Assembly: GCF_900162685.1 (NCBI RefSeq)
Contig: NZ_LT727827.1
Span: forward strand, 124,001 to 188,000
Reading direction: 5' to 3'
DNA: 64,000 nucleotides
DNA from: Terribacillus halophilus
GTDB lineage: Bacteria > Bacillota > Bacilli > Bacillales > Amphibacillaceae
Within the stretch, counting starts at the first letter, position 1; each line of letters begins with the position of its first letter. The notes beneath the pieces are model-generated. The model was not told where the DNA came from. It saw only the letters and a program-made list of their open reading frames with translations, and searched no databases. The translations under genes were made by a program, and so were the position numbers. Positions 2,414 through 42,683 of the stretch are shown here, one piece after another.

Positions 2414-3793
2414 ATGGAGGTGTTAGTCATCGCATCAGAAACGAAATTAACCGGTCGTGTTATTTTCAGAGGTGAACCTGGTTATGAAGAAGCACGCCTA
2501 AATTGGAATCCGTACACGAACACATATCCCCTCGTTATTGTGTTCGCACAGGAGCATGATGATGTGGTTCATGCAATAAAATGGGCCCGAGAAAATAATG
2601 TTCCTCTTCGTGCTCGGGGCGGGCGTCACGCATTGGAAAGAAGTATGTCTGTTGTGAAAGACGGTATTGTTATCGACGTCAGTGAAATGACTCGAGTTCG
2701 ACTCAATAGCAAGAAGGAAATAGCGCTTATCGAAACCGGCATCGATGTTGGGCCGCTTGTCAGTTCATTAGCTGCAAGAGGCTTTATGTCTCCCTTTGGA
2801 GATAGTCCTACCGTTGGAATCGCTGGTCTCACACTAGGGGGAGGAATTGGGCCGCTTCAACGCACAATTGGTCTTGCTAGTGATAATTTGATTGGGGTAA
2901 AAATGGTTGATGCTGAAGGAAGAACCATTATAGCAGATGAGAATAATAATGCTGACCTTCTGTGGGCTTCGCGCGGCGGAGGCGGAGGAAATTTCGGCAT
3001 CGCTACAGAATACAAATTCAAGGTGCACCGTGCCCCTGAAAGAGCGACTGTATTCGACATTAATTGGCCGTGGGAGCAATTCGAAGATGTAGTGAAGGTC
3101 TGGCAAAAATGGTCTCCTTCTGCTGACGACAGATTAGGCACTAGTTTAGAGGTTTACACGAAAGACAATGGGCTGCTTCAAGCAACAGGACTGTTTCTCG
3201 GTTCAAAGGAAGAGTTAACTCATGAGTTAAAACCACTATTAAAAACAGGTACGCCATCAGAAGTTAACATTCAAACGTTACCTTGGCCAGCTGTCGTTGA
3301 AAATCGACTGCAGCCTGACCAAATACCAACAGATGCTGCAAACAAATTTTCTTCATCCTATGGTTTCCAGCCATTCCCTGATGAAGCAATCAAAGCGATG
3401 CGATATTTCCTCGAAAACGCAACCGGCACCGACTCTAATTTCTTCTTCCTAAACTGGGGTGGCGCTGTAAGCAGAGTTGCTCCTGAAGCAACCGCATTCT
3501 TCTGGCGCGATCCGAAGTATTATTTTGAGTGGAGTGCAACCTGGAAAAATCCTTCTGACGCGCAAAGAAACATTGCTGTAGTAGAAAGAACGCGCCAGAT
3601 GTTAGCGCCATTCTCTAAAGGATCTTATGTCAACGTTCCGGATTTTAACATTAGAAACTTTGGTAGTGCTTATTATGGAGCAAACTTTGACAGACTCCGG
3701 CAAGTAAAAACAAAATATGATCCAAATAATGTATTCAATTACCCGCAAAGTATTCCTCCATTAAACGGAAGATCTGGTTTTAGATTGTTCTAA
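2414..3793 (+). CDS. berberine-bridge-type FAD-binding oxidoreductase (YvdP/YgaK-like)
   Basis: A 459-residue flavin oxidase with an N-terminal FAD-binding PCMH domain and the C-terminal BBE segment ending YDPNNVFNYPQSIPP. RGGRH near residue 75 contains the histidine that usually carries the covalent flavin. The second covalent site of plant and fungal members, a Cys in GxCPTVG, is Ser here (GDSPTVG), so only single covalent attachment is expected. B. subtilis relatives include YvdP (CotQ). The start is uncertain: a strong GGAGGTG at 2416-2422 lies inside the annotated N-terminus, and the codon at normal spacing from it is ATC (2429), not ATG/GTG/TTG. The ATG at 2414 has no ribosome site of its own. 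Substrate unknown. Confidence 0.85.
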   Translation: MEVLVIASETKLTGRVIFRGEPGYEEARLNWNPYTNTYPLVIVFAQEHDDVVHAIKWARENNVPLRARGGRHALERSMSVVKDGIVIDVSEMTRVRLNSKKEIALIETGIDVGPLVSSLAARGFMSPFGDSPTVGIAGLTLGGGIGPLQRTIGLASDNLIGVKMVDAEGRTIIADENNNADLLWASRGGGGGNFGIATEYKFKVHRAPERATVFDINWPWEQFEDVVKVWQKWSPSADDRLGTSLEVYTKDNGLLQATGLFLGSKEELTHELKPLLKTGTPSEVNIQTLPWPAVVENRLQPDQIPTDAANKFSSSYGFQPFPDEAIKAMRYFLENATGTDSNFFFLNWGGAVSRVAPEATAFFWRDPKYYFEWSATWKNPSDAQRNIAVVERTRQMLAPFSKGSYVNVPDFNIRNFGSAYYGANFDRLRQVKTKYDPNNVFNYPQSIPPLNGRSGFRLF

Positions 3794-40849: not shown

Positions 40850-40888
40850 AAAAGAAAAAGCCCGCCTTATTCGAAAATAAAGCGAGCA
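40850..40888 (-). terminator. second terminator between the pheromone gene and gatC
   Basis: GCCCGCCTTATT pairs with AATAAAGCGAGC (two mismatches) and is followed leftward by TTTTTCTTTTTG. With the hairpin at 40965 it isolates the quorum-sensing cassette from gatCAB. Confidence 0.75.
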
Positions 40889-40964
40889 ATTGAGGGTCTT
40901 ACTTAAGGGAAATAGTACATGATGTATATATTCGGTGAAGGTTTGGAATCTCCTTCTAAGAAAA

Positions 40965-40996
40965 AGAAAAAAATGTAGCCAGTAGGGCTACATTTT
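40965..40996 (-). terminator. terminator at the pheromone gene stop codon
   Basis: AAAATGTAGCC (40970-40980) pairs with GGCTACATTTT (40986-40996). The stem begins at the TAA of the peptide gene and leftward is followed by TTTTTCTTTTT. Confidence 0.85.
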
Positions 40997-41196
40997 TAAA
41001 ATGCTCCAGGCTGTAAATCAAGAGCCACTAGATTACTCTCTGAGAAGGCACCTGGCTGTAAGTCCAATACAGTCGGATTCTTTGTCGAGAACGCTCCTGG
41101 TTGTAAGTCTAATGCTTCTGGGTTACTACTGCCACTGAATACTAGGCCAACACTTAATAGAACTGCCCCAACTGTAATTCCAATAACTTTTTTCAT
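40996..41196 (-). CDS. secreted pro-peptide with three tandem LDLQPGAF repeats, putative quorum-sensing pheromone
   Basis: 66 residues: Lys-Lys start and a hydrophobic Sec signal (VIGITVGAVLLSVGLVFS) followed by three 15-residue units, each ending LDLQPGAF (residues 29-36, 44-51, 59-66; the last is the C-terminus). The octapeptide is identical in all three, yet seven of its eight codons vary silently, which means the peptide itself is under selection. AGGAGG is 6 bases before the ATG. It starts 11 bases after the stop of a PlcR/NprR-like regulator, the layout of PlcR-PapR and NprR-NprX pairs. Predicted path: export, trimming to a short peptide, re-import by an oligopeptide permease and binding to the regulator. 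Repeat-bearing precursors are uncommon among these systems. Function inferred. Confidence 0.8.
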   Translation of the reverse strand: MKKVIGITVGAVLLSVGLVFSGSSNPEALDLQPGAFSTKNPTVLDLQPGAFSESNLVALDLQPGAF

Positions 41197-41207
41197 ACGA
41201 TTTCCTC

Positions 41208-42470
41208 CTATAATCTTAATAAACCTTGGTAATACTTGTTAGCCATCTTGTAGAACAAAGAAGCATTCTTGTATTTCTTTATTTCTTCGTATTTTTCTGC
41301 AATCATATTGGAATAAATAATAACGTTAATATTATCTTCTTGTTCTATTAAATGCGGGAGTAATAGATTAGTTATAGTATTTTCTAGCCGTAAAAAGTCA
41401 CCGTTTAGCGCTGCTTGGAAGATTTCTATCTCCCATTTTATAACCTTACCACCTAATTTTTGCTTAGCCATTATTTCCTCAGCTTGGTTAATTAAGCATT
41501 GAGCTTCTTTAAATCTATTTGTGATATAGTATTCTCTAATTAGAGAAGTAACCGTAGTTAAATTGAAACTCATCTGCATATTATCCATATCAAATGCAGT
41601 CTTATAATACTTTATTGCTTCTTCCGATTGACCAGCTCGAGAGTATAGATAACCTAGATTGTGGTTTGTAAGCTGGATAATATCATTTTCTTCAGTTATT
41701 TCACCAAGGTGCTTAGCTAAGTTATATTGCTTTATTGCCATATCATGCATATGCAATCTCCTATAGGCAATTCCCAGCACTATATGACACTGCGCACAGC
41801 GCACAAAATTGTAATTTTCTCGGAAAACAGAAAGTGCTTTTTGCCCATACTCTAGCGCGTTCAAATCATTTACTAGTTTACTATGAAGAACCGCTAAGAG
41901 ATAATGAATATCAGCAATCTCATTGTCTGCTAATTCAATTGAGTCCATTATAGATTCGGCAAATTCATAACTAGATATTGCCTTAGAGTATTCTTCAGTT
42001 ACTGTATGAGAATAATTTCCCAAAAATTTATTCCAATAGAATAAATGAATTGACTCAAAAGTATTTTTTAGTGATTCAAGTCGCTCAATCTGTTCCTTCG
42101 CTTCCTCAACTCTGCCTTCCACCAAATAAAACCTAATCTTTTGAATCTCGAACAACATTTCATGGTCGGAATTATTTGCTTTAAACAGAATCTCAAGTTC
42201 CTCGAAGCGTTGTCTTCTTTCGTCGGCATTGTGTACCTCGTACAGCATGCCGTACCATTCCTCTGCCTTCTCCTTGATCATATCTTCATTCTCTGCGTTC
42301 AGCTGGATGCCGAGTCGTTCACAAAGAAGGCTGATGACTTCAGGGCTGGCGTCGGTTTTTTGGTTTTCGATTTTGGACAGGTAGGATTCTGAAACAATGC
42401 CCGCTGCTAGGTCTTCTTGTGTCATATTTTGCTTGATTCTATGTAGTTTAATTAAAGGGCCTATTTCCAT
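41208..42470 (-). CDS. RRNPP-type TPR transcriptional regulator (PlcR/NprR-like)
   Basis: 420 residues, the length of NprR. HTH of XRE type at about 5-60 (IGPLIKLHRIKQNMTQEDLAAGIVSESYLSKIEN), then TPR-like helices to the C-terminus (for example NHNLGYLYSRAGQSEEAIKYY at about 280). The ATG at 42470 is chosen because it gives the canonical N-terminus and has GAGGTG upstream; the longer frame adds a Lys/Arg-rich leader. The next gene encodes a repeat-bearing secreted peptide, so the TPR domain is expected to bind that peptide in the cytoplasm. The cassette interrupts the conserved camS-gatC neighbourhood. Targets unknown. Confidence 0.88.
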   Translation of the reverse strand: MEIGPLIKLHRIKQNMTQEDLAAGIVSESYLSKIENQKTDASPEVISLLCERLGIQLNAENEDMIKEKAEEWYGMLYEVHNADERRQRFEELEILFKANNSDHEMLFEIQKIRFYLVEGRVEEAKEQIERLESLKNTFESIHLFYWNKFLGNYSHTVTEEYSKAISSYEFAESIMDSIELADNEIADIHYLLAVLHSKLVNDLNALEYGQKALSVFRENYNFVRCAQCHIVLGIAYRRLHMHDMAIKQYNLAKHLGEITEENDIIQLTNHNLGYLYSRAGQSEEAIKYYKTAFDMDNMQMSFNLTTVTSLIREYYITNRFKEAQCLINQAEEIMAKQKLGGKVIKWEIEIFQAALNGDFLRLENTITNLLLPHLIEQEDNINVIIYSNMIAEKYEEIKKYKNASLFYKMANKYYQGLLRL

Positions 42471-42683
42471 TTGGGCTACACCTCGAAACATTTTTTTCTT
42501 TCTGCGTAAGAGCTTGTGCCCAAGACCATTGCTGGAATGTGTTTCTGTTTCCATTTTAACACATCCCAACTTTTAGTGTATTGGGAAAGTAGGGATTAAA
42601 GCGTATGCTTCTCTACCTATTTCCAGGCAATACTTTCCTGGTCTTGTCTAACATTGTATGCTTTTTTCTCTATATTGGCTGCT

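Follow-up and report, generated by a model that had tools for sequence, protein, structure and literature searches.

We analysed a window of 64,000 nucleotides from the soil bacterium Terribacillus halophilus (contig NZ_LT727827.1, positions 124,001 to 188,000), in which a receptor gene and the gene for a small, repeated peptide precursor lie side by side between camS and gatC. The receptor joins a helix-turn-helix (HTH) DNA-binding part to a predicted array of tetratricopeptide repeats (TPRs), and the precursor carries three copies of the octapeptide LDLQPGAF (Table 1). Very probably the two genes form an NprR/NprX-type quorum-sensing pair with a three-copy pheromone precursor, whose TPR half and precursor have been exchanged among species of the genus.

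Table 1. Features of the receptor and precursor locus, in window coordinates.
Feature	Positions	Strand	Basis or remark
NprR-type receptor gene, 420 aa	41208..42470	-	start Met at 42470; longest open reading frame (ORF) from 42569
HTH DNA-binding part of the receptor	42290..42470	-	conserved in the genus (pairwise DNA identity 85.6-98.9%)
Predicted nine-TPR peptide-binding part, residues 59-419	41214..42296	-	AlphaFold2 model
Asn codon aligning with RapF N227 (peptide-anchoring) and NprR N275	41658..41660	-	HMMER alignments
Tyr and Phe codons aligning with NprR tetramer contacts Y223 and F225	41805..41813	-	alignment
Putative exchangeable module (receptor TPR part and precursor)	40958..42101	-	change points, tree conflict, saturated silent sites
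Precursor of the pheromone (66 aa), with a predicted secretion signal ahead of the three LDLQPGAF copies	40996..41196	-	ORF reading
N-terminal secretion signal, extent inferred	41134..41196	-	basic start with Lys, hydrophobic core
Pheromone copy 1, LDLQPGAF, residues 29-36	41089..41112	-
Pheromone copy 2, LDLQPGAF, residues 44-51	41044..41067	-
Pheromone copy 3, LDLQPGAF, residues 59-66, ends at the stop codon	40999..41022	-
Terminator-like stem-loop with T-run, directly behind the precursor, at the margin of the divergent stretch	40969..40997	-
Second terminator-like stem-loop with T-run, in conserved DNA	40860..40887	-
Inverted repeat GGGATGTGTT-N14-AACACATTCC upstream of the receptor	42534..42567	-	genus alignment

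The receptor was read from the methionine at 42470, which is Met34 of the longest ORF. This start is backed by an upstream GAGGTG and by small indels in some genomes of the genus that throw the extension upstream of Met34 out of frame. A family profile scan found HTH_3 (E 8.6e-12) and TPR_12 (E 3.2e-12) domains, and a profile search matched NprR (4gpk, E 1.6e-29) and Rap105 (E 3.2e-31). VIA-align placed Rap, NprR and an arbitrium receptor among the 50 matches listed, with no PlcR there, an absence that by itself excludes nothing. In the AlphaFold2 model, 18 TPR helices spanned residues 59–419, at a mean predicted local distance difference test (pLDDT) score of 77.3 with residues 1–58 below 50. 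NprR has 18 helices forming nine TPRs (PMC4970707) and PlcR a five-TPR fold (PMC12700828), and a PlcR-type receptor was ruled out by this difference in TPR number. Proteins of the Rap-Phr systems have no DNA-binding domain, whereas the present receptor has the HTH_3 match given above. The asparagine whose peptide-anchoring role is known in RapF, PlcR and PrgX (PMC3601992) has a candidate equivalent that was invariant in all 12 rows of the receptor alignment; its NprR number (N275) and the other residue numbers were counted by hand from the printed HMMER alignment rows. Among the NprR tetramer contacts (PMC4970707), the tyrosine equivalent to Y223 was likewise invariant, and the phenylalanine equivalent to F225 was kept in 90% or more of these rows. 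As modelled, the receptor is of the NprR type, with an HTH and nine TPRs, and not of the PlcR type. An earlier note on this DNA had called it a "PlcR/NprR-like" TPR regulator, a label of which the NprR half agrees with the 18 modelled helices and the kept asparagine, and the PlcR half has to be dropped.

The precursor starts 11 bp after the receptor stop codon, with AGGAGG ahead of its ATG. Re-reading of the ORF recovered the three perfect LDLQPGAF copies described in the earlier note next to an RRNPP-type regulator, and its codon table was correct: seven of the eight codon positions vary silently among the copies, and only position 3 (TTA) is fixed. In 200,000 shuffles of precursor residues 21–66, no shuffle contained any 5-mer three times and 256 contained one twice. 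The copies in G004, the genome with the nearest relative of the pair, read LDLQPGAF, LDLQPGAF and NDLQPGAF; therefore, DLQPGAF is the invariant part. Adjacent copies in the window differed by 10 silent and no replacement codons, compared with 1 silent and 5 replacement codons in the two linkers. The same comparison was extended to 13 of the 16 multi-copy precursors described below (L026, L134 and L115 were left out), with linkers taken from equal-length neighbours only. Between adjacent copies, 278 core codons were identical, 152 silently changed and 2 replaced, against 146, 40 and 35, respectively, for linker codons (Fisher p 5e-18 for core versus linker substitution, the adjacent-copy comparisons not being independent). 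This pattern indicates that purifying selection keeps the octapeptide rather than the linker, as the earlier note had proposed. In L068, L088 and L109, whose repeats are near identical, the linker too was mostly unchanged, which would fit copies that are young or have been homogenised.

The window was then compared with nine other genomes of the genus, each species being represented by one genome. G002, the nearest of the nine, was 92.5% and 96.3% identical to the window in the two flanks and 95.6% in the HTH part, versus 60.6% in the module (40990–42050). The more distant G004 was 81.1% and 89.2% identical in the flanks and 80.1% in the module, and had nearly the same peptide. Between G004 and G009, identity fell from 96.5% and 98.6% in the flanks to 62.6% in the module, and the three copies of G004 stood against a single SQPRAY core in G009. 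Change points from three species pairs placed the left end of the module at 40956–40972, just behind the precursor, and the right end at 42012–42101, inside the receptor and past about residue 123–153. In the type with a TPGVL core, the right edge lay farther upstream, between about 42325 and 42250.

Divergence at silent sites (dS) followed the same boundaries. Between the window and G002, dS was 2.7 in the TPR half versus 0.18–0.39 in ligA, camS, the N-terminal part of the receptor and gatA, and between G004 and G009 it was 1.8 versus 0.06–0.15 elsewhere. The pair G001 and G005 showed the reverse pattern, with a dS of 0.012 in the TPR half versus 0.09–0.35 elsewhere. The flank tree joined the window with G002 and G003 and paired G004 with G009, each grouping being fully supported, whereas the tree of the TPR half, with the precursor left out, joined the window with G004 (99/99). 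In approximately unbiased (AU) tests, whose groups were defined once the identities were known, the flanks rejected window plus G004 (p 9e-5), the group with QP..Y peptides (p 1e-47) and the TPGVL group (p 9e-12), and the module rejected window plus G002 plus G003 (p 3e-49) and G004 plus G009 (p 2e-122). Peptide type agreed with TPR type in all 10 genus genomes; the three types need two changes on the module tree and four on the flank tree. Because of the tree conflict and the saturated silent sites, we read the ligand-binding half and the pheromone gene as what looks like an exchangeable specificity module occurring with three peptide types.

Sister species could differ in the module without any exchange of DNA if receptor half and peptide had diversified rapidly in place, as in an arms race. 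Replacement changes in the TPR half were indeed raised (dN 0.377 for window and G002), and the QP..Y type is diverse within itself, G002 and G003 being only 65.4% identical in the module despite their same broad peptide type. However, saturated silent sites are not a product of protein-level selection, window and G004, though separated by a deep split, share a module of ordinary divergence, and the module and flank trees reject each other. Moreover, the near identity of the G001 and G005 modules is a sign of recent exchange. Evolution in place therefore seems to us barely credible.

Another explanation bears only on how the mosaic arose: the peptide types would be old alleles that predate the species split and were randomly lost (trans-species polymorphism), and not recently moved. 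The window and G004 are about as similar in the module as in the upstream flank (80.1% and 81.1%), as expected for old shared alleles, and in a quick family tree eight Terribacillus receptors formed one clade (SH-like approximate likelihood ratio test, SH-aLRT, 100), so that the types seemingly arose within the genus. On the other hand, G001 and G005 were 99.8% identical in the module versus 93.5% and 96.4% in the flanks, a contrast that requires exchange in recent times, albeit inside a single type, and the sharp module edges call for recombination either way. We regard ancient alleles as a plausible explanation that falls somewhat short of an even chance. A fuller version of the exchange reading treats the pheromone gene and the ligand-binding half as a specificity cassette, with edges inside the receptor and behind the precursor. 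Homologous recombination through the conserved HTH and the gatC-side DNA would have moved this cassette between species, taking the copy number along (one or three in the genus, up to ten in the family), and selection for difference would keep several types. In our judgement, the case for this version is evenly balanced. Mosaicism of the TPR half may be general in the family, as 19 of the 33 pairs with near HTH silent sites in the whole set had a saturated or strongly changed TPR half, a count that rests on hand-set thresholds, non-independent pairs, some of them from this genus, and an HTH stretch short enough to make single pairs noisy.

Relatives of the pair were common. In a mixed kin set of 61 genomes, 44 had a receptor at E ≤1e-20; within the taxonomic family, a profile search at E ≤1e-60 found one in at least 115 of the 159 genomes. 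The retrieved loci, which took in part of the family matches, yielded 128 distinct receptors, of which 111 were termed primary (profile score above 430, a cut set after the scores were seen). A credible secreted precursor, secretion being judged by a hydrophobic N-terminus, lay just downstream of 97 of these 111. Among the precursors picked by script, 95/96 started 11–29 nt past the receptor stop, and all 96 had a Shine-Dalgarno-like string, which was also weighed when the start was chosen. A loose pattern, in which [EQHKT]P precedes one small residue and then two that are mostly hydrophobic, occurred in 82 of the 97 precursors, a count that includes L145 and, in a few rows, a match in the tail; its commonest forms were EPSIF, EPSIL, EPSVL and EPSVF.

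Three to ten copies were present in 16 of the 97 precursors, the other 81 being of the usual single-copy kind. The search for downstream peptide genes and repeat numbers that the earlier note had suggested thus agrees with its statement that one copy per precursor is usual, although multi-copy NprR-type precursors have already been published. Besides the three copies of the window, KDAEPSIF occurred six times each in L018 and L048, seven copies each were found in L068 (MNVEPSIL/VL) and L113 (HDAEPSIF), and L109 (genome G118, 2805–3359) had ten copies of MDKHPGVL. The repeat counter had flagged 17 precursors, from which L024 (a chance match) and L153 (outside the primary set) were dropped; 15 entered the receptor tree, and L115 was added afterwards to give the 16. 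On this tree of 97 rows, which took in 8 of the 10 genus receptors (one near-duplicate and one below the score cut were left out) and a spurious L145 "precursor", the multi-copy or single-copy state changed at least six times, gain and loss not being distinguishable.

Some of these loci had features of their own. In L115 (G121, 3060–3602), at least three DLVPGVL copies were seen before the precursor ran into a run of 543 Ns. L026 (G039, from another family of the order) had a more distant receptor and a precursor in which HESHPDP recurs five to six times, mostly every 14 residues. At L010/L075 (G007) and L017/L077 (G009), the receptor frame was broken N-terminally and the precursor intact, from decay or assembly errors. 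In genus g18, 5 of 8 genomes (G167, G168, G169, G170 and G173) had between three and five NprR-type receptors apiece (E ≤1e-60), with two in tandem at L116 (G170); the g18 peptides were diverged and mostly single-copy.

Among known systems, the pair most resembles NprR-NprX of the Bacillus cereus group, with which it has in common an HTH with nine TPRs, a precursor gene directly downstream, a peptide of seven to nine residues with an inner proline, an aligned anchor asparagine and tetramer tyrosine and phenylalanine, and the occurrence of several pherotypes. The active NprX peptide is SKPDIVG (PMC5641580), which the core motif of the relatives resembles. In NprX the active part is internal in the precursor, and seven NprR pherotypes are known in the B. 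cereus group (PMC4147580), whereas the Terribacillus precursor has three copies, the last of them C-terminal. Multiplication of the peptide is not itself new. Duplications in some nprX genes are in print (PMC5199041, PLoS Biol 2016), and repeats were reported in 17/17 NprR propeptides of unusually large size, copy numbers in the AimR, NprR, PlcR and Rap subfamilies reaching six (PMC9765709, mBio 2022). The ten copies of L109 and the seven of L068 and L113 exceed the six given in that paper. Like the window, the published multi-copy NprR and Rap propeptides (PMC9765709, PMC5199041 and PMC11343458, the last from PLoS Biol 2024) hold tandem identical or near-identical copies; the present case differs in the ten copies of the relative L109 and in the exchange of the peptide gene and receptor half as what appears to be a unit.

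Two other systems resemble this apparent exchange. In ComRS of Streptococcus suis, the DNA-binding half is identical between two types, variation is confined to the peptide-binding half, and the type is transferable with the peptide gene (PMC4072589); in contrast to the present pair, ComRS has a five-TPR-type receptor, a small single-copy peptide and competence as its output. In comQXPA of Bacillus subtilis, a variable sensor half lies by a conserved output half and adjoins a variable pheromone gene (PMC4008528), but the sensor is a membrane histidine kinase, the system has its own modifying enzyme, and the proteins are unrelated. In the Rap family, recombination was sought and none was found (PMC5199041). 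Given that result, a clear case of exchange among NprR-type receptors would mean that new specificity can also be reached by a second route. In the openly readable literature searched, we found no report of an exchange with edges inside an NprR-type receptor, nor of ten copies. To the questions of why precursors hold several copies and how peptide and receptor shift specificity together while staying matched, Terribacillus brings species pairs with near-identical flanks and HTH that differ in their peptide and receptor halves and have one or three copies, making copy number, dose and specificity testable at a single site.

Several observations weigh against an NprR/NprX-type pair. When the receptor was searched against the PDB as a single sequence, the top two rows were designed TPR proteins, and NprR ranked below them. 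Pfam and NCBIfam scans assigned the precursor to no family. In 73 of the 82 precursors with the motif, 6–11 residues follow the last core, and how these would be trimmed is not obvious. The earlier note had likened the C-terminal last copy to PapR, which is true of the window's own last copy and not a rule, the core being internal in most matched relatives. Furthermore, unlike NprR-NprX, the pair does not lie beside nprA, and a genome scan found no M4 neutral protease gene (Peptidase_M4). Adjacency to nprA and control of the neutral protease belong to the B. cereus locus and not to the fold; without them, the regulon cannot be that of B. thuringiensis NprR.

The residues by which NprR contacts Spo0F (D107, Y118, E188 and Y223; PMC4970707) were also mostly not clearly kept. 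Only Y223 was clearly aligned; Y118 stood opposite a conserved lysine, E188 was one column off an invariant glutamate, and D107 fell at a gap. This lack of clear alignment at three of the four contacts also argues against a receptor that acts, like apo-NprR, chiefly as a Rap-like sporulation brake on Spo0F turned off by the peptide, and not as a transcription factor. As the HTH is, in addition, present and conserved, we consider such a brake unlikely.

Finally, 14 of the 111 primary receptors had no credible precursor. This would fit a repeated peptide with an extracellular role, such as that of an antimicrobial or a substrate decoy, beside a receptor that senses something else. However, peptide and TPR types match in every genome of the genus and change together, and the cores have a spaced proline in common with NprX SKPDIVG; action outside the cell appears highly improbable. 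The 14 (L130, L133, L136, L140–L149 and the second L116 receptor) have the look of orphan receptors, and in L136, L140 and L143 gatC follows within about 300 bases.

At the level of sequence, the NprR/NprX-type pair comprises a predicted nine-TPR HTH receptor and an adjoining precursor with a signal-like N-terminus, whose octapeptide bears the mark of purifying selection. The export, processing, binding and regulon we infer by analogy with the family. The precursor would be exported via Sec, and extracellular proteases would cut it into copies of about DLQPGAF (LDLQPGAF), seven or eight residues long. An oligopeptide permease would import the peptide, and six oligopeptide-binding proteins (SBP_bac_5) are encoded in the genome. 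The peptide would then dock in the TPR groove around the conserved asparagine, altering how the receptor assembles and how its HTH binds DNA; in NprR, the bound peptide turns a dimer into a DNA-binding tetramer. In two phage Rap systems, duplicated Phr precursors give several pheromones with different affinities and the same responses (PMC11343458); three identical copies would therefore most simply mean more peptide per precursor, with the response unchanged. Exchange of the module would let the receptor hear a different peptide, while the HTH and its targets stay constant.

The surroundings of the pair were examined as well. No match was found in phages by tblastn; among viral contigs, 1 of 303 candidate stretches matched, in the HTH only, and the 20 plasmid records were all below 60% identity. 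The earlier placement of the pair within a camS-gatC block was borne out, since camS and gatC flank it and ligA, camS, the receptor gene, gatC and gatA occur together in 10/10 genomes of the genus, the window's own counted. Therefore, the pair is resident at this site in the genus and is not an insertion peculiar to this genome, and insertion as a mobile cassette was ruled out. Near the 111 related receptors, camS or gatC was found in 66 cases (gatC 50, camS 52, both 36), a lower bound because flanks were mostly about 1.5 kb. The two terminators that the earlier note had assigned to the pair were found as stem-loops with T-runs on the precursor's strand; counted over both strands, the region had 5 terminator-like sites versus 2.0 expected from shuffles. 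Promoter-like sites showed no excess (6 in the region versus 7.4 in shuffles). The inverted repeat upstream of the receptor could be aligned, apart from single-base differences, in 10/10 genus genomes. The genome has one such site when up to 3 mismatches are allowed, and a search for the regulon by operator hence gave no target list. When the upstream DNA of 87 receptors was scanned for its exact half-sites, 7 had them, all from this genus; the repeat is possibly an operator for autoregulation, an RNA hairpin or something else.
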